Positions 5,886-31,992 of a stretch of DNA of 38,146 bases are shown one piece after another. The translations under genes were made by a program, and so were the position numbers. The stretch comes from Fragilaria crotonensis (lineage: Eukaryota > Bacillariophyta > Fragilariophyceae > Fragilariales > Fragilariaceae): NCBI GenBank assembly GCA_022925895.1, contig JAKSYS010000606.1, forward strand, positions 1 through 38,146, in the 5' to 3' direction. A model generated the notes under the pieces. The model saw only the letters and a program-made list of their open reading frames with translations, had not been told where the DNA came from and searched no databases. Every line of letters starts with the position of its first letter. Positions within the stretch are counted from its first letter, which is position 1.

Positions 5886-7916
5886 ATGGCCATCAACACA
5901 ACGATGCTGCTTTTGTCATTCAGCATCACACAGACGCAAGATACAGAGCCAACACCAAAAGATAAAGGCAAGACTTGGACCGAACCTCAGGTACGTTCTC
6001 GCTTCCAGCACTTCGCGCCATAACAATGCCATGGAAGCTGACCTCTACATCCTTCAACATCAGATTCCTGCCAGTCGATCCCAGTCGTACTAACGATGAG
6101 ATTCACACGACGATCGAATTTTGTCCAGTCATGAGGACGATCGTAGATACTCCTCAGTTCCAGCGTCTTCGAGGGTTGTGTCAACTTGGAACAAGCGAGC
6201 ACACGTATATGAATGCCAATCATCGGCGCTTCGAGCACTCCATCGGGGTTGCGCATCTCGCCAAAAGAATGGTAGAGCGCATTAGAACCAGGCAGCCAAA
6301 GTTGAATATCACTGACAAAGACGTCCTTTGTGTCAAGTTGGCTGGGTTGTGTCACGACCTCGGACATGGTCCCTATTCGCATGTATTTGATAGCACCTTC
6401 CCAAATCGACTGGAGAAACATCTCAAGAGGAACCCAGAACTTTTGAAGTATGAAGGATTACCCGAAAAACCGCATGGATGGGAGCATGAAGACGGTTCTT
6501 GCATGATGATTGATGCCATGCTTGCCGGACTTGGTTTGGCGATTGATGAAGATAATCTCGATGAGCCTCTGAAACAAATCGGAGATGGCGTCGCTGCTTC
6601 GTCTTTTCGCGTCTACGATGCGCTTGATGTCAACGACAACGACTCGTCGCGTAAAACCCCGAACACCGACTTAGTCATGACATCTCGAGATTGGATCTTC
6701 ATAAAAGAAATGATTCTCGCCAAACCCCATTGGTATTCACCGCGACACCCACTGCCAGATGAATCGGGCTTTGTTGGTCGTCCTAAACGATATCAGGAGT
6801 TTTGTATGACATCGTTTCGAATCGACATTCAGGTTTGGATGTCGACAAGATTGACTACTTTGCAAGGGACCATCGACGTGCCTTCAGAGGCAGCGGTGAA
6901 ATTGATTTTAGGTTGATAGAAGAGGCGGTGGTTGCGTGGGGCCTTTGTCCTCGTCCAGACATGTGTTTCTGCTGCGACAAATACCCTCAACAGCACTTGA
7001 TGATTTGCTATCCAGAAAAGTGCGCCGGTGTGTATCATTCTTTCATCATCGCTTCAAACTACATTCCACCGTTTACACCCACAAGACAACACAAGCGTCA
7101 ACATTCATGATTGCAGATATCATGGCCTTGGCCGATCCATACTTTCGATTGCCGCCATTTGCTTTCGGACAACCTCTGCCTCTCAGTCGTGCCATGTGTG
7201 ACCCTCAAGTCTATGTGAGAATGCGAGATTCAATCATTGATTTGATTGAGTTCAATCCTGACCCTCGACTCAGGCCTGCACAGGACTTGATTCATCGATT
7301 GCGCAAACGTGATCTCTACAAGTGTGTAGCAGCACGAAAGATTGATTTGGACAATGAATTGGATGCTATCCTGTGGGCGAAGTCGGAGGAAGACATAGAG
7401 CAGGAGCTCCTTCAAGTCCGTGGCATTTACGAGAACGGTGTCGGCCTGGTAAGAAATGACGTTCTCGTGGAACGGAGAAAGATTCATATGGGCGCGAAAG
7501 ACTGCAATCCGCTGCTCCTCATGCGATTTCTACCGAAACGAGACCTGCGTTTGCTTGTCAATCCGTTCGATGACCTACCAGAAGCGCTTGAGGCCTCACC
7601 GGCCGAGTACGCCGCGCACCTTCCCAAGGTCTACCAAGAAAACAGCATACGTATCTTTTGCCGCGGTTCGGAAACGAAGTGCCAACTGCTTTGTCATGTT
7701 TTCGAGGCGTGGGTGTCAGAGTGTGAGCAGCAGTACACCGGAATGATTCATACCTTCGACGAGCAGCCTTTTGCTGCAGTCCAAATCGATGATGCTGAAG
7801 CATTGACGCAGGAAGAACCAGACCCAATGCTCAGTCCTCAACCGTTGTCAGAAACATGCAGCATACTAGTCTATCCACTGGCAGCGCGCGCGAGCAGGCT
7901 GAGTCTACGATACTAA
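5886..7916 (+). CDS. SAMHD1-like HD-domain dNTP triphosphohydrolase (two apparent one-base frameshifts)
   Basis: The predicted product hydrolyses dNTPs to nucleoside and triphosphate, limiting the dNTP pool. Exon 1 (5886-5990, 35 codons, MAINTTMLLLSF...KTWTEPQ) splices in phase to exon 2 at 6101 (IHTTIEF...). Metal-binding H-HD-D residues are visible: the His in NHRRFEHSIGVAHLA (near 6220), HD in GLCHDLGHGPYSHVF (near 6350) and the Asp in GLDVDKIDYFARDHR (near 6860). Further family blocks are TPQFQRLRG, LMICYPEK and THKTTQAS. The reading frame slips twice, near 6796 (in TTTT, between YQEF and LYDIVSN) and near 7045 (between CYPEK and FFHHRFKLHS), each consistent with one missing base. With those bases counted the protein is about 640 aa, close to human SAMHD1 (626 aa). 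No N-terminal SAM domain is seen. The start is the first ATG in the exon-1 frame; an intact gene with consensus errors is likelier than a pseudogene. Confidence 0.85.
5991..6100 (+). other. intron 1 of the SAMHD1-like gene
   Basis: The donor is CAG|GTACGT. The acceptor is GATGAG|ATT, with a TACTAAC-type branch point (6088-6094) immediately upstream. This is the only nearby AG that joins exon 1 in phase 0 to the HD-domain frame. Length is 110 nt. The branch-to-acceptor spacing is short, but the resulting junction KTWTEPQ-IHTTIE aligns with the normal start of this family (DPIHG-x-IEL). Confidence 0.7.
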
Positions 7917-18014: not shown

Positions 18015-19380
18015 TTGGACTGGGAGTTTCATTGCAGACACACGCTGGGTTATCTCTCGACATAGTATACGGTTGTGGATACGCTGTGCGCCAACGAAGG
18101 GCGTCTTTTCCAGTTGCTGGTGGAGAGTCCTATTGAGCGGTACAATTGGTGCATCTCTTTAAGTATTGTTAGAGCTCGATTCAACTCGCATTGCCCATTC
18201 CATTATGCTTTGCTTGGATGCGGCACTACAATTGACTGCCACATGCAGTGCTCTATGGTTAATTGTTCATCACGGTGTTCGGTCTTCGTTGTTGACTAAT
18301 TCGAGGGAAACCATACCTCATTCGCCATGTATTGGACAACGGATGGCACCAACGATGCCAGCGTTCGCGACGGGATGTCCTGCAACCTTGTCCTCGTCGT
18401 TGGCAACGTTGATCACTCCATGTTACTCAGTGCCGACTTCGCTTACCCGTAGCATCGGCCGGTGTCAAAACGGGATAGCAGCACTAGACTGTACCACGGT
18501 ATGCATACGGGGTTTTCTATCCACTCGTAGCTCGTTGTAGACTGTGGAGTGTGGAGGGCACTACCGGTAGTATCGTACCGTGCATACCACGTGCTACTTC
18601 ACACTGGTACACCGAGTACTGCGTAGAGGTACACCTTTTCTACAGTATCATACCTCGTAGAATTTTGCATCTACTACAAGTATGGATACTCGATACTGCA
18701 CCGTAACTGTACTGGTACCTTCGGTCATCTGACAGACGACCCTGTTCTTGCATCATGACTCGATGATCAGTACGACTACAGGTGCTATGTACCTACTACA
18801 TGGCACGGTAGACTATTTGCTACTTATCGCATCTACAGGCGGAATCCGGTTTCCGCTGTAAACCAGTACTAGTACTGGAGTACTCGAGTACGATGAATAG
18901 TACTAATGTACCATTTGTACTGTACGCTTTAGAAAATGAATATTTACTGTACATTGTAAGTACTGTATGTTACATTTTCCAGTACTTCCAGTAGTACTGT
19001 CACTTGTTAGTTGTTACTGTAGTAATCATTTCTTTAGTACGCACTGTGAGCGATTTACAGTATACTCTACTACCGGTAGGAGTAGGAAACATCTACTGTA
19101 TACGTCGTTCTACCAGGTACGATAATAGTACTCTTTGTACTTCGTAGACGACCTTGCCAGTAGAAAGCTTCTGGACCGCGCAAATACCAAGAAAATGGAG
19201 TTTTCGGTGACACTCGGAAGGATTGGGCAGTAGAAATCATACCAGAACGGAAACGAGAGGCGTACGAACGACCAGCCCACACACATACAGCAGCAGTGGA
19301 CGGCGGTTCCCACATGCTGGCGGTGCTATCGCTCTTGACCAATACAGCTCTACACGCCCCTCCCCCGTTCCTTTGCCTTC
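18015..19380. other. intergenic region with strong GTAC-palindrome island
   Basis: 18015-18540 has short ORFs, including one of 124 codons at 18166-18540, without recognisable features. About 18550-19110 is the densest GTAC stretch of the window, with perfect palindromes such as CCAGTACTAGTACTGG (18863-18878) and GTACTCGAGTAC (18880-18891). The BET gene begins 3' of it. Confidence 0.5.
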
Positions 19381-22300
19381 ATGCATGATCCGTCAGACGA
19401 CACACAAGATGAAGAGGACCGGACTACAACATTAGCAGCGAACGACGCAAAAGACGTGCACGAAAACGGAACGAACGAGGACAAAGGCGGCGCCATGGAC
19501 ACGGTCGATTTTTGTACGACTGAACCCAGTGCTATAGCGGCGAATGCCGATGGCAAGCCTCAAGCCATGGATGACGATGATAATGATGACGAAATGAATA
19601 ATGATGATAGTAATGACTACGATGATGAAATTCCAGATGACATGGAGGACAATCCACACGACAAAACAAATGAAGGGGCTAAAAATAAGAACGCAACAAA
19701 AACGACGGAGCCAACAAGAACGAATACCGCAGGCTCCGTAAAAATTTCCAACGACACAACAACCACCGTTATTGCCAAATCTGGGAACGGATCCAATGGT
19801 CGCCACGGCAACATCACTAGTAGCAGTGCTGGACCAATAAGTGCTGCTCCTCCTCCTCCACCAGTGCTTAAGGGGACACTATCGTTCAATGTAGAAACGA
19901 GGCGCCACATGATTCGTGGCATGTGGAACTATGAAAATTCTTCCACCTTTCCTCCACAACGATTTGAGCTGCTCCGGAACTTGGATAAGGACGAGGATCC
20001 CACAGTCCTCCCGAGCGATGGAGAATTTCATGGATCCTTCAGTCTAGCTTATTTCCACACAACCTCCAAAGGCAAGCAGAAAGAGCGCAGCAAAGTTATT
20101 CCAGAGAGTGGTGTCAAAATCACATTCACGCCGATTGAGGGGAGCGAGGGAGAATTTGACGTTGATGGCGAAGGAACTAATCAGTTTGGAATTTTCAATA
20201 TTAATGGGAAGGCCACACCAAGCGAGCATGAGGGTGATCCAACCTTTGACATCGTCCTGAGAAAGCGCTACAAGCCTTCAAATCTGCCAGCACCAGTAGC
20301 AGCATTGGTAACCGGGGATTTGAAGAAGAAAAACGACCGAGCAATTTCATTGGAGACGGAAGTGTGGCAGGTATGGAATCCGTGGTGGAGTCTGAGGCAG
20401 GGCCTCTTCCTCCTCCGTCAGAGTCCTTTCCGTCCCGTGTGGTTTGTCTGCGCGGTAAACTCATGCGCGATCAGTCGGATGAACTTGGTGTTAATGAGGG
20501 GATCTACAGAATCAACGGGATGTGGTCGTCTGGATTGGATCTGATTCTGGCTGATCCGCAGAATGTTCGTGGGCTTTGCAATCGCTTCGAGTATGAACAC
20601 AAGAGTTCCCAAACCAGCAATGTCTTCCCCGTTTCGGGTAGATACTCTGGATGGTTCGATCTCACAAGTGAAGACGGCTCTAGAACTCGCATCAATGAGA
20701 AAGATATTACGCTAAAGTTCCGAAAAAATAACGCTGGCTATCACAACGTGGAGGGGAAAGGGTCAAACGCTTTTGGAAAATATAGCATCAGTGGCACTCT
20801 GACGCTTGACAACGTTATCACAATCTTCCGACACTTTCAAGCGCCCAAGAAGAAAGCGAAGGATCCACCCGCAAAACCGGACGGAACGACCACTAGTTCG
20901 TCAATCGGTGCTCCAATAGCGGTGAAGGATGTAGCGCCACCGCCTGACATGAAGTTGAAACTTGAAGACGTTGAAGTCCCTGGTGGTGAGCAAGTGAATG
21001 GAAATCTGCCATCCGTTCCACCTCCACCGCATGGCACGTATTCGGCCGTCTCACGAGGAATCATGCGGCTCAACGAAGACGGTTCACATACATGTTCCGG
21101 AAAATGGGCCATGACACGAGAACACTTCAACAACGGAACCGTGAGCAATTTTTCCTTCCGTCTGGAGGCCCATTTCGCTGCACAGGGAGCAGCAGCAATG
21201 AAGAAAGCCAACGGAGAAACCCGGACGACGACGAACCCGCTGGAGTGTCTCTCTTAGGTGCTCCTCCAGGATCCTTGACATTCCCGGTCGATTCTGCCCT
21301 CTACAAGGGCTCGTTTCAGATGAAGCGGGGAGCCACCAAGTATACATCGGTGATCGATCAACAGATAGTTCTGAAGTTTCGAAAGAATTCCGAGGGGTCA
21401 TTCAATGTTCATGGGACAGGGATCAATTCGATTGGAGTTTTCACTTTGGTCGGAAAATTAATACTTAGCGGAAAGAGCAGTGGACACGTTGAACTTTATC
21501 GAATGTATCCCTTGCCGCCAGCAGCACCTGGTCATCCTGGAGCGGCAGTTGTGCCTACCAAGATACAGTCAACTCCATCGTTGCCGCCACCACCGTCACC
21601 CCCACAAAAGATTAGTGGCGACACGGCGGCTCAAGCGTCGTCTTCTGCGATCCCGTCCGGTCCTGCTCCGCCGAGACAGGGACTGCTTAGGCGAGAATCG
21701 TCAAGACTCGTCAAGCTTCCTTCCCGTTTAGAGGATGATGATCCAGATGCTCAATTGGGCAGGCTCTTGGAAAAATGCGGTCAGCTTCTCAAGTTCATCA
21801 GCGAGAAAGACGTCGCGAGCGGTGCTTTCTTTGCGAACCCTGTTGACCCCGTTGCGCTCGGCCTCCCAACGTACTATCAGATTATCAGCGAACCTATGGA
21901 TCTGGGTACGATCCAAAGCAAACTTGACTCCGACGAGATAGAAACACCCGAAGAGTTTGGAAGGCTTGTTCGCCTCGTCTTCGAGAACGCCATGACCTTC
22001 AATGTGGAGCCAACTCACATCGTTCACCAGTCGGCAAGGCAGCTTTTAATACTTTTCAACCAGAAATTCCGTGATGTTGAACGAATGGCCGAAAACATCC
22101 GACGACAGCACAAGCTGCCGGATACAGTTGTCAAAACTGATCCTATGGGTGTAGGAAAGCAATTGAGTAAATCAAAGAAGCGAAAGGGCGGATCGGATGA
22201 ATTGATGAGCGCAAAGAGAAGGCGACTCTTAGAGGCTCAGACAATGGCCGCGGAGAACGCAAATGCCATGAGTGCATTGGTGGCTGCTGCACCACAAGGA

Positions 22301-23590
22301 ATTACCACTGGTGGCAGCGTGAGCCGAGCTGAATTTAACGCAATGCTTCAGATGATCCAAAAGCTCCAGGCACAAGTGGTACAGACTTACACCGCACTGG
22401 CAGAAATGTCTTCCGACGCTATAGAAGAGCCTCCTGCGCTTACGCAAACGGCCCCTCCACACTCAGTCGAGATGCAAGCCTACGTGCCTTCACAACAGGA
22501 GGAAAATCATGCTCCAGTTCAAGAAAAGAAAAAGGCAGTACCGAAGCGTAAGGAGCCCTCTCCTTTGGATGATGAGAAGTCACTTACCTTTGAGGAACAA
22601 CAAGCGATGACAGAGGCGATCAATCGGCTTCCGCGTGATAAGCTTCCTGGCGTTGTCAAAATTATTCGTGAATCGGCGAACTTAGGTGACGATGACACAA
22701 TTGAACTGGATGTCGATCAGCTTGATACGGTCACGCAACGCAAGCTGCAGCGCTTTGTAATGAAGGTAAGTATGTTCCGGAGAGTGCTAATGATCTTTCT
22801 ATTTGAACGTCTCCCTAACTTTCTGATTGTCATCCAACAGATCGTGAAGCCACCAAGAAAAAAGCCCAAGCTTGTTCCCAAGAAGAATCCGCCAGCGAAA
22901 AAGCCAGAAGCTGTGCCTATGCCAGCTGTCCCGAAGAAGCCTCAGCATACGCCGTCCTCAAAACCGCCTGAACATGGATTCTTTGCCTTTGGTTCGAAAG
23001 GTGGCGAAAGCGACTCAGATTCCGAAGATGGCGAGATCCCGCAAACAGAGGTTGCATCGTCCGAACGTAACAAGGATGACGACTTCAATCTAGGCGACGC
23101 ACATGATGACGACGATGACAACGACGACATGGGCAATAACGAATTTGGAACCAACTGGATTATGGCCACATCGGAACCTGCTGGAGCTGCGGCTGCTAAG
23201 GATGCAGACGATGACGATTGGGGCGCTGCACGAGAGCAAGCCGAAGTCGCCAAGGCCCGCGATGCGGAGCGAAAGGCCCGGGAAGAGAAGGTGCTTGCGG
23301 AAGCCGAACTCGCGAAGAGCCAACGACTGGCTGACGCTGCCGCCCGCGGGGAGGAGGCTCGTGTGCAACGCGATTTAAGAGCAGCGGAGGAGGCCCGTCT
23401 TCGAGAAGAGAAGGAGAAGCTCGCCTCGGAGAGGAAGCAGGCCGCTCGTGATGCCGAGCGAGCCAAGCTTCAGTCTGTGGAACGAACTGTGAATCTTGAC
23501 GAACAACGTGAAATCATGAAGCAATTTGAAACAAACTTTATGGGTGATGAGGCGGATGGTGCCAGTCCTTCGTCCGACTATGGGTTTTAG
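19381..23590 (+). CDS. BET-family bromodomain + NET protein with three novel N-terminal repeats
   Basis: BET proteins bind acetylated histones and regulate transcription in the nucleus. Order from the first ATG after an in-frame stop (residues approximate, corrected protein about 1378 aa): acidic Asp/Asn-rich region 1-130; three copies of an unrecognised beta-rich repeat (about 160-310, 350-490, 540-710), each preceded by a Pro-rich linker; bromodomain 794-905 (FFANPVDPVALGLPTYYQII, EPMDLGTIQSKL, NAMTFN with the acetyl-lysine-binding Asn); Lys-rich nuclear signal KKRKGG; NET domain 1066-1128 (LTFEEQQAMTEAINRLP, IELDVDQLD); KPPRKK; acidic patch; and a long Ala/Glu/Arg coiled coil to the stop. 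The frame slips near 20330 (AAAAA) and near 21215 (AAACCC); both fit one missing base. An in-phase 75-nt intron lies at 22766-22840. Convergent with the aminotransferase gene, 279 bp apart. Function of the repeats is unknown. Confidence 0.85.
22766..22840 (+). other. in-frame intron of the BET gene
   Basis: Donor AAG|GTAAGT, acceptor CATCCAACAG|ATC, 75 nt without an in-frame stop. Removal joins FVMK to IVKPPRKK at the end of the NET domain; retention would add 25 residues with hydrophobic character (MFRRVLMIFLFERL...), which do not fit the domain. Both isoforms keep the frame. Confidence 0.75.
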
Positions 23591-23869: not shown

Positions 23870-25131
23870 TTAATACACCTTAAAATTCCATCCATACACA
23901 TCTTCTTCTTCTCCATTTTGAATGGCACGCACTCGATCGTACAGTCGTCTTGTCACGGCTCCAATTTCCTTCGAAAATTGGTATCGTTTGGCATTGCCAT
24001 CAGCATCGAATCGCGTGATGCTGCCCACTGGTGTCATGACGACCGCGGTTCCAACAGCCAAGACTTCTTCAAAGGCTTCCAGCTCCTCCACGGGGATGTC
24101 ACGTGCCTCAACGGTGAGGCCCTCATCCGCGGCAAGGGTCATCAAGCTCTTGTTTGTGATGGATGGCAAGACGGAACCTGATTTGGGAGTGACGAACTTG
24201 TTCTTTTTGATATCAATACCAACAAAGTTACTGGTTGAGAATTCTTCAATAGTGGTTTGGGTCGCAGCATCGAGGTACAAACCCACAGGAAAACCTTTCT
24301 TTTTGGCCAACATGTTGGGCAGCAAATCTGCCGCATAATTTCCTGCTAGTTTGACATTACCGACTCCTCTTGGCGCTGCGCGATCGTAATCATCAATAAT
24401 GATTGCATTCACAGGTTGTGAGAGACCTCCTTTATAATAATCACCAGCTGGAATGCATAAACAGATGAATGTGTATTCATCTGAGGGTTGTACGCCAATG
24501 CGAGGGCCAGATCCAAACAGGAGTGGACGAATGTAAAGAGAGCCTCCCGAACCGTACGGCGGTACGTACTCGATGTTGTCTCTGACAAGATCATTGACGG
24601 CTTGCAAGAAACGATCCATTGGTAGGCATTCCATGAGAGTGCGATCGCAGCTAGTCTTCATGCGTTTGGCGTTCTCGTCGGGTCGGAAGACGTTCACAGA
24701 GCCATCGGCGTGAGCAAAGGCTTTCAGACCTTCGAAGCAGGATTGGCCATAATGAAGGGCAGTTGCTCCGATGTGAATTTTAACGTACGGGTCCTAACGA
24801 ATGATGACATCGTATCAATAAGGTGAGGTTCATCGAATTTGAATTTGTGATAGTTGGTGCAAAACAAACTCACCGCCACAAGTTCCGTCGGGCCCCATTC
24901 CCCATTTTTGTATACAATGCGTACGTGGCTCTTAGTAGGACGGAATTCAAATTCAAGTTCTTCCCACGGTACATCCAGTTGTGCAGTACCTGGCTTTCCC
25001 AGTGCTGTATTCGCAGCTGTCATACTCATTTGCATCCATGATGATCGTGATGGAGCAGTCGTAGTTGCAGGGAGAGGTGAAAAGGCCGCAGCCGTCGTTG
25101 CCCACAATAGTGAAAGAGTCGCAATCTTCAT
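23870..25131 (-). CDS. branched-chain amino-acid aminotransferase, plastid-type presequence
   Basis: A PLP enzyme of fold type IV that interconverts Leu/Ile/Val and their 2-oxo acids. Exon 1 is 24874-25131 (86 codons), exon 2 is 23870-24793 (307 codons plus stop), 393 aa and no frameshift. The N-terminus has a hydrophobic signal with TTAAAFSPL at residues about 13-21, like the diatom ASAFAP plastid-targeting motif; mitochondrial import is the alternative. Family blocks: HIGATALHYGQSCFEGLKAF (about 93-112), YIRPLLFGSG, the PLP lysine in GNVKLAGNYAAD (about Lys234), IEEFSTSNFVGI, SVLPSITNKSLMTLA and VGTAVVMTPVG. The start is the only ATG upstream that gives a presequence. It diverges from the molybdate transporter gene across the Mutator-like insertion, which begins 321 bp upstream. 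Confidence 0.93.
24794..24873 (-). other. intron of the aminotransferase gene
   Basis: 80 nt on the minus strand, donor GTGGCG|GTGAGT, acceptor TTCGTTAG|GACCCG. It joins GPTELVA to DPYVKIHIGAT. Confidence 0.9.
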
Positions 25132-29852: not shown

Positions 29853-30276
29853 TTCATCGAAAATCGAAAATACTATGAACATACCAGTATGGTCCCTACT
29901 GCACCCTGTTTTGTTTGCTCGATCTCACTTGTACCGACGTCAGACAGGCGGGCATCCACCGATGGCAAGCTCCACTGTCGTATCCGGCGGAAATTCCAGG
30001 TATGTACTTTTGTACCTTGTACCTGTACTGTACCAGTACGAGTTGGCATTTGGCATCCACGTGTTGAAGATCTTTGACATCCTCGGTCTTGCGTGTTGAT
30101 GGATTCATCCGTGGTCGTTTTTCTGTTTCTTGGCGGCCATATCGGCAATTGTCACAACAAGAAGCCAACACCAGTCAACAACTGATAGGTGTGGGGAAGG
30201 TCGAGGTGTTAGGTCATTCATCAAACCTTACCGAAGAAGCAAGTTCGGTCGGTCATCCTCAGTGTTGATAAAAAGA
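29853..30276. promoter_or_regulatory. upstream region of the molybdate-anion transporter gene
   Basis: 424 bp between the transposon and the ATG. An in-frame ATG at 30130 exists but would place a basic, non-hydrophobic stretch before the signal peptide. GTAC words occur near 30001-30040. No definite promoter element is identified. Confidence 0.35.
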
Positions 30277-31992
30277 ATGAGGCTCACTTGCGTAGTAACG
30301 AGCACTACCGTTGCAATGCTTTGCTCGCAGGCAGTCTCGGCCTTTGCATCCCATTCGGCTAGTGCATTGCGGCCACCACTTAAACTTCACCACAAGCCAA
30401 CGGGTATCCGTGTTGTGGAACAAAAGAATGGTCTCACTATGATGATGGCCTTGCCTCGGGGAGGATCGGCTAACCTCGTGTCTCTTCTTAACTCCAAGAT
30501 AGCTGCGGCCACCAACACCCCATCGAACCTCTTTAATACAGCGCTGGTGACTCTGGCACTCACCACTGCGGCTTTCAAAATCATCCAGAGATCGTCGCAG
30601 AAAAAATCCTCCACTGACGCCGAAAAGCCCGTCACCAAACCCAGTAGCATCACTTCGCTTCAAATGCGATACCTTTCAGTTTTTTGGTTAATTCGATGTG
30701 CCGACTGGTTGCAAGGACCATACTTTTATGAAGTCTACGCCTCCAAAGTTTTTGGTGGCGTCCAGGCATCCATGAGCCTCGTCAGCAAACTGTTTTTGAC
30801 AGGCTTTGCGTCGACTGCGCTCTTCGGGCCACTCGTCGGACGGGCGGCCGATACCTACGGACGCAAGCGAGGGACCCTGGCCTTTTGTCTCATTTATGCG
30901 GTTGGAGCTGCCAGCACCAAGTCGCCCCTCCTATCTATCTTGCTATTGGGACGCATTTTTTCGGGAGTTGGGACAAGTCTCCTATTCAGTGCACCGGAGT
31001 CATGGCTAGTGGGTGAATCGCAAAAAGGAGGTGATGATCCCGATGGAAAGTATTTGGGTGAAACCTTTGGCATGGTACGTTTGGGAACTCCTATTGTTTC
31101 ATCTCGACTACTTTCTTTTTCAAGCAGAACTCAAACATCACATTGTTCCTGGTGATAGGCGTATTCTGGAGATGCCATAGTTGCCATTCTTGCTGGCCAA
31201 TTCGCCGGTGCTGCTGCGGGCGCTCGCGGACCCACTGGTCCCTTCGAGCTGTCTACTGTATTTTTGGCCCTAGGCGGTGTACTCGCCACCTTGCTTTGGA
31301 AGGAGAACGTTGCCGATTCAGCGGGCGGTTCGGATGGAGACAAGAAACCGTCGATTCGTGATGCCATTGATGTCGTTACTGCAGACCCAAAAATCATGCT
31401 GGTTGGTGCCGTCCAATCCTTGTTCGAAGCTGCCATGTACATTTTCGTGTTGCAGTGGCCGCCTGCCATCTCCAGCGCAGTTCAGACTGTCTTCGGTGCG
31501 AGTGCGGTGACTCCGTACGGAACAGTCTTTTCATGCTTCATGGCCTGCTGCCTCCTGGGATCTACACTCTTTGGTCAATTTGCCAAAATGGGTGTGCCCA
31601 CGGAAACCTTTACAACTGGGATGTTGGCTCTCGCCACCATCGCCATGGGTGGATCTACAATCGCCGCCTCTTCCAGCGCCGTTTCGTTGTGGACCATTGT
31701 AGCCGGCTTCTTCGCCTTTGAATCATGCGTTGGCATGTACTTTCCTTCAATCGGGACTCTGCGCAGCAAGTATGTTCCGGATTCTCACCGCGGTGTCATT
31801 ATGAATCTGTTTGGGATTCCACTCAATGCGCTTGTTGTGAGCGTGTTTCTGTCGATGAAACGATTGGGCCTCACGGGTGCCCTGGGAATTTCGACAGGGG
31901 CTCTTGGGGTTGCGACACTGTGTATGATTGCCCTGCAGCGATTGACGAGTTCTCCGAAAGCCGTGACGGTGGCGGTAGTAACTCCTGTGTAG
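30277..31992 (+). CDS. MFSD5/MOT2-type molybdate-anion transporter with plastid-type presequence
   Basis: A major-facilitator protein of the MFSD5/MOT2 family, whose algal member takes up molybdate for molybdenum cofactor. Exon 1 is 30277-31074 (266 codons), exon 2 is 31159-31992 (277 codons plus stop), 543 aa, no frameshift. Family signatures are DWLQGPYFYEVY (residues 143-154), GRAADTYGRKRG (188-199, the MFS loop 2-3 motif) and GRIFSGVGTSLLFSAPESWL (225-244). About twelve membrane segments follow the usual two-times-six layout. A signal peptide with AVSAFAS (19-25, Phe23) and about 100 further residues precede the first conserved membrane helix; this fits diatom plastid import via the ASAFAP-type motif. 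Family members elsewhere act at the plasma membrane, so plastid-envelope location is an inference. Start chosen for the signal peptide. Confidence 0.9.
31075..31158 (+). other. intron of the molybdate-anion transporter gene
   Basis: 84 nt, donor CATG|GTACGT, acceptor GTGATAG|GCG. It joins ETFGM to AYSGDAIVAILAGQFAG in phase 0, as in related proteins. Confidence 0.9.

Follow-up and report, generated by a model that had tools for sequence, protein, structure and literature searches.

A diatom BET protein with three flexibly linked copies of an unnamed, predicted eight-stranded domain in its N-terminal half

BET proteins, a family that includes BRD2/3/4/T, yeast Bdf1/2 and the plant GTEs, play a central part as transcription coactivators, serve as drug targets and are usually described as bromodomains plus an extra-terminal (ET) domain. 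In the known members acetylated histones are the target of the bromodomain, and effector peptides that of the NET domain. The animal and fungal subgroup has two tandem bromodomains, while the plant GTEs have one. Here we describe a BET protein that, like the GTEs, has a single bromodomain and is encoded on the forward strand at positions 19381-23590 of a 38,146-nucleotide stretch (the window; contig JAKSYS010000606.1, assembly GCA_022925895.1) from the diatom Fragilaria crotonensis. The N-terminal half of this protein is formed by three domains, D1, D2 and D3, of about 140 residues each. We propose, at a probability of roughly 55%, that this is a diatom BET protein in which the three linked barrels offer three different binding surfaces and together serve as a multivalent docking arm.

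The window protein belongs to the BET family by its bromodomain and by the NET domain located C-terminal to it. Both matches exceed their Pfam cut-offs, and the NET match (PF17035) scored 65.2 bits against a cut-off of 24.5. Homologues were collected by searching residues 90-360 of the third reading frame against 5.8 billion proteins (E <= 0.001), and the homologue figures given here refer to the best 120 of 445 matches. The query ran from the last 50 or so residues of D3 through the linker and the bromodomain and included neither D1 nor D2. The bromodomain carries the motif NAMTFN, whose asparagine we take to be the residue that contacts acetyl-lysine, and the pattern NA[MV]x[FY]N was found in 99 of the 120 homologues. 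Only one bromodomain match was obtained in the gene; with no second tandem bromodomain found, the protein falls outside the two-bromodomain subgroup.

An earlier note on this DNA, made from the letters alone, had claimed that three copies of an unrecognised domain precede the bromodomain and NET domain. The three segments and the motifs quoted for them are all present, DGEGTNQFGIFNINGKA in frame 1, EGKGSNAFGKYSISGTLTLD in frame 3 and HGTGINSIGVFTLVGKLIL in frame 2, and the bromodomain and NET domain do lie downstream of them (Table 1). Profiles of each copy were built from homologues (107 D1, 110 D2 and 116 D3 sequences, with P0057, discussed below, excluded) and compared with HHalign. All three pairs were linked: D2-D3 most strongly (98.6%, E 1e-15, score 93), then D1-D2 (97.7%, E 1.6e-12, score 75) and D1-D3 (96.6%, E 6.7e-10, score 61). 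The top score among 150 column-shuffled controls (50 per pair) was 22.4, so the segments are homologous copies, as had been supposed. In the relative P0001 the copies measure 137 (D1), 139 (D2) and 161 (D3) residues. At thirteen positions one residue, shared by all the copies, is present in at least 90% of the sequences of each (G11, G32, W34, F55, P69, G76, F78, F99, G111, G113, N115, G118 and G124 in D2 numbering), and every copy has Phe or Tyr at positions 74, 120 and 138.

The copies could not be placed in a described family. No Pfam model exceeded its cut-off over the window's barrels, NCBIfam gave nothing significant when run on the window's own pieces, and a sequence search of the PDB had its best matches at E 0.061 (3f85) and 0.27 (AcrVA1), neither significant. 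The domain is thus unrecognised by Pfam and NCBIfam in the copies scanned. Thirteen Pfam families that each matched one or two of 29 fragments were rejected as chance, the best of them being Nup98_GLEBS (0.02), SMG1_N (0.033) and CBM77 (0.035). Disorder of the segments, the outcome that the earlier note held against its own reading, was checked on D2, which AlphaFold2 predicts to be ordered, with eight strands and one short helix, at a predicted local distance difference test score (pLDDT) of 89.7 and a predicted template modelling score (pTM) of 0.81. A model of D1-D3 from the ortholog P0005 (551 residues) also has eight strands in each copy. Its D3 contains helices besides the eight strands, one of them within an insertion between strands 3 and 4. 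The linkers of this model have pLDDT below 50 and are probably disordered. Eight predicted strands per copy and small barrels as the nearest solved folds, none of them significant, agree with the beta barrel or sandwich suggested earlier, and each copy is most likely a beta barrel. The protein is a BET protein of diatom type with three flexibly linked copies of an unnamed domain of eight predicted strands.

At E <= 0.001, Foldseek returned no PDB match among 618 for D2 or among 752 for D1-D3, and none of 443 matches of D2 in BFVD was significant. The best viral fold match to D2 was an uncharacterised phage protein (BFVD A0A6J5MHB6; E 7e-3, probability 1.00, TMq 0.44). VIA-align established no fold family for D2 or D1-D3, a result that excludes no other named fold family. 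Among the nearest folds were dirigent, DUF3237, DUF3224 and PloI4 barrels (4rev, 8th2, 9m2y, 2ooj, 7x81) and the uncharacterised 2q03, 3g7g and 3c5o, all without a significant Foldseek E. To these proteins the copies show 5-12% identity and no Pfam match above cut-off; those of them with a known role are not known as chromatin proteins. Across the 29 fragments the only Pfam trace of dirigent/allene-oxide-cyclase-like or DUF3237-like membership was DUF3224, at E 0.076 in one row. Avidin/streptavidin and lipocalin-type (calycin) barrels were likewise not significant by Foldseek, and their circularly permuted forms outranked the natural ones. If the barrels were small-ligand sensors of the calycin or dirigent/DUF3237 type, a metabolite or cofactor held inside them would couple BET-dependent transcription to the state of the cell. 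The ligand-binding and enzyme barrels among the nearest solved folds are in line with such a role, and no ligand-site motif was recognised in the barrel copies in the calycin comparison; we regard the sensor role as unlikely.

The three copies are read in three different frames because one frame break lies after D1 and another inside D3. A coding sequence split in this way might be that of a decaying pseudogene in the F. crotonensis genome, with the three domains as its remnants. We consider this highly improbable, since the pieces are 96-99% identical to an unbroken protein, no stop occurs inside any piece, one missing base suffices at each break, one break lies in a run of A, and the barrels were found at no second site in the genome among the best candidates scored. 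The unbroken protein is P0001, the best match (1378 residues; a cluster of three sequences on six contigs), which is 99% identical over the query region and continuous at both sites. It maps on the window in four pieces (19381-20334, 20316-21239, 21170-22771 and 22832-23587) that jointly span residues 1-1378. By this protein alignment, the relatives being known here as proteins only, the absence of one base from the window sequence would account for each break. The close identity to P0001 makes an assembly error likelier than decay, and the breaks are probably assembly errors.

The order D1-D2-D3 was observed in 109 of the 120 homologues, with D2-D3 in five, D3 only in five and no copy in one; the profiles used for this count were ones in which D2 and D3 each kept one misaligned P0057 row. 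Each copy was at least 75% complete in 106 homologues. Neither a fourth copy nor a different order was found among the 120. The incomplete homologues, P0057 aside, are 483 to 1027 residues long; nine of them start within, or a short way ahead of, the first of their copies, and the one without any copy (P0006) is a BET fragment of 524 residues. P0057 was rejected as a BET ortholog, being a polybromodomain protein without barrels that had scored D2-D3 through misaligned segments; it has 1260 residues and several tandem bromodomains.

All seven named matches in the list are diatoms: Cylindrotheca closterium, C. fusiformis, Fistulifera solaris, Nitzschia sp., Amphora coffeaeformis, a Bacillariaceae metagenome-assembled genome and Eucampia antarctica. 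Fistulifera and Eucampia were looked up and belong to two diatom classes (Bacillariophyceae and Thalassiosirophyceae); Cylindrotheca, Nitzschia, Amphora and the Bacillariaceae genome we take to be diatoms as well. Six of the seven have D1, D2 and D3, with D2 incomplete in Amphora coffeaeformis, and the Eucampia antarctica entry (761 residues) has the end of D3 only. The earlier note had named co-occurrence with bromodomains in other diatoms as a finding that would support it; this is borne out by these proteins, in which the domain accompanies bromodomain and NET.

Conservation was expressed as the mean share of the commonest residue over 119 homologues (103-119 rows per segment). The values were 0.783 for D1, 0.785 for D2, 0.682 for D3, 0.793 for the bromodomain, 0.757 for NET and 0.42-0.49 for the linkers, and D1 and D2 are therefore conserved about as much as the bromodomain. 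Strand positions were assigned as inward or outward by hydrophobic alternation on the D2 strands. With this assignment, the three copies share their consensus residue at 17 of 43 inward positions and at three of 39 outward positions, and outward positions are conserved at 0.77-0.81 within each copy. This is in keeping with a single fold that bears three private surfaces. If the barrels were instead inert spacers, or modules for solubility that lack a specific partner, this would agree with the linkers predicted at low confidence, which are probably disordered. The conservation of D1 and D2 and of the outward positions, together with the lack of a fourth copy or an altered order among the 120 homologues, makes such spacers very improbable.

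The beta4-beta5 hairpin of D1 is rich in lysine (HTTSKGKQKERSKVI in the window) and is absent from D2 and D3. Its residues K69, G70, K71, K73 and E74 are invariant in alignment A2 (32 rows, 31 proteins). This invariant hairpin could mean that the barrels bind nucleic acid directly and so add sequence or structure recognition to the BET reader, and Foldseek does place single-stranded-DNA-binding proteins near the top of its list (2cwa, E 0.09; 3udg, E 0.14), at TM-scores of only 0.10-0.18. However, the hairpin is found in one copy only and is missing from the proteins P0130 and P0137, and neither Pfam nor the PDB sequence search matched a nucleic-acid-binding family significantly, the weak traces being Phage_ssDNA_bind (0.14) and RNase_P-MRP_p29 (0.12) in one of 29 rows each. 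We consider direct nucleic-acid binding an unlikely role for the barrels.

In the docking arm that we favour, the protein would be anchored to acetylated histones through its bromodomain and would recruit effector peptides through NET, both by likeness to known BET proteins, and the three barrels would form a flexible multivalent arm for three further partners. The largely shared interior would hold the fold of the barrels. The copy-specific conserved outer faces may each serve a different partner, such as the nucleosome surface, DNA or the transcription machinery, and the D1 hairpin would be the best candidate for a contact to DNA or to an acidic surface.

Several observations weigh against this arrangement. 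The query held the end of D3, and the presence of D3 in the matches is therefore partly due to selection. The inward and outward assignment favours shared hydrophobic residues inside by itself, conservation is higher at inward (0.86-0.88) than at outward positions, and little divergence among the homologues may explain the conservation. Closure of the barrels was deduced from the fold matches, the coordinates of the models not having been inspected, and the ligand-binding and enzyme barrels mentioned above bear on the docking role too, as does the absence of the hairpin from P0130 and P0137. In addition, a chromatin role of the barrels is suggested only by their fusion to bromodomain and NET and, in one case, to a Tudor domain. 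This Tudor association is known from one, possibly incomplete, protein on one 2.9-kb contig, and a search started from that protein found only itself, in a test that was limited by protein length and insensitive, as it missed the BET copies too.

The protein in question, P0137, came from a profile search restricted to short proteins over 5.8 billion sequences. Nineteen proteins were found, all of them matched by the copy profiles and 18 without any Pfam domain; several look like broken BET N-termini. P0137 (250 residues, from a metagenome) combines one D1-like copy (E 6e-8) with a Tudor domain of the PTM/DIR17 type (PF21743, E 1.3e-8) and, unlike the window protein, has neither bromodomain nor NET. 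Because P0137 carries the domain without the BET domains, the domain may occur outside BET proteins as well. The suggestion of a lineage-specific module stands in part: all seven named matches within the best 120 of 445 are diatoms, with other stramenopiles not searched separately.

A search of the Fragilaria genome with D2, P0137 and P0001 as queries, in which only the best candidates were scored, gave no further barrel copies beyond the window contig. The genome holds a second gene with a NET domain, which was detected at equal scores on two contigs and has a bromodomain close by (C143:7491-7685 and C382:42974-43168; loci L013 and L014). No barrel was found at these two loci (3.2 kb examined, 1.5 kb flanks) or at eight other bromodomain loci (L001-L008, 1.5 kb flanks), of which L005 is the second NET gene site. 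Viral contigs searched with D1 and prokaryote genome contigs searched with D2 gave no relative, by a method that finds close relatives only.

The features of the gene are collected in Table 1. At its C-terminus, the motif SPSSD[FY]GF was observed in 26 of the 120 homologues and is conserved (ASPSSDYGF in the window, 23561-23590); many of the others that lack this end seem to stop at an intron or at a contig end. The motif RRESSRLVKLPSRLEDDDP lies upstream of the bromodomain at about 21689-21745, and the pattern R.ES.R..K.PSRLEDD.P is present in 80 of the 120. A stretch rich in AGTACT/TACT words was noticed by eye upstream of the gene (18860-19160). A class IV aminotransferase on the minus strand (PF01063, E 1.9e-29; 23870-24697) is its convergent neighbour. 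Elsewhere in the window we observed an MFS_5 transporter (PF05631, E 2.9e-32; 30130-31155) and, at 5975-7916, an open reading frame with an HD domain (PF01966, E 1.2e-10). A weak match to an HD-associated region (E 0.0019, below cut-off) comes after it in a different frame, and the two may belong to one dNTPase-like gene that is divided by an intron or a further frame break.

Table 1. Features of the BET gene, in positions of the window
Feature	Positions	Strand	Remarks
Coding stretch 1 (frame 1)	19381..20334	+	Acidic low-complexity N-terminus, then D1; 99% to P0001 residues 1-318
D1 (copy 1)	19864..20274	+	137 residues; 8 strands in ortholog model
Coding stretch 2 (frame 3)	20316..21239	+	Linker, D2, linker, first half of D3; 96% to P0001 residues 313-620
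First frame break	20329..20333	+	Run of five A, after D1; proteins P0001-P0004 continue unbroken
D2 (copy 2)	20424..20840	+	139 residues; eight strands and one short helix (AlphaFold2)
D3 (copy 3)	21030..21511	+	Contains second frame break; ortholog model has eight strands and helices
Coding stretch 3 (frame 2)	21170..22765	+	Second half of D3, Pro-rich linker, bromodomain, NET; P0001 from residue 598
Second frame break	21214..21220	+	Within inserted loop of D3; proteins P0001-P0003 continue unbroken
Bromodomain PF00439	21776..22036	+	E 9.1e-15
BET/NET (extra-terminal) domain PF17035	22583..22765	+	E 1.7e-17
Intron, 75 bases, GTAAGT...CAACAG	22766..22840	+	No in-frame stop; its translation absent from P0001 protein
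Exon 2	22841..23590	+	Tail basic, then acidic/charged; ends ASPSSDYGF and stop

In the literature, as covered by titles and the starts of abstracts with few subscription journals, no description of a diatom BET protein carrying this kind of domain was found. PMC7408324 reports that phosphopeptide abundance decreased with nitrogen depletion for a Phaeodactylum protein named TFIID subunit BDF1 (Phatr3_J44399), a possible ortholog of the window protein.

More broadly, and only tentatively, diatoms may have evolved a new class of chromatin-associated beta barrels, used on their BET coactivator as a triple, copy-specialised arm for docking to nucleosomes or transcription factors and, in a separate setting, next to a Tudor reader. 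If this is true, the barrel arm could take over the role of the second bromodomain of the animal BET proteins. A major phytoplankton lineage may add an unstudied interaction surface, the three-barrel arm, to its BET coactivator. The copies form a new domain family with boundaries clear enough for expression, pull-down and structure work. Compared with the BET family as described, the window protein has in common the bromodomain (PF00439) followed by the NET/ET domain (PF17035) and the charged linkers and tail, and it differs in its N-terminal half, which here consists of three domains outside Pfam and NCBIfam.
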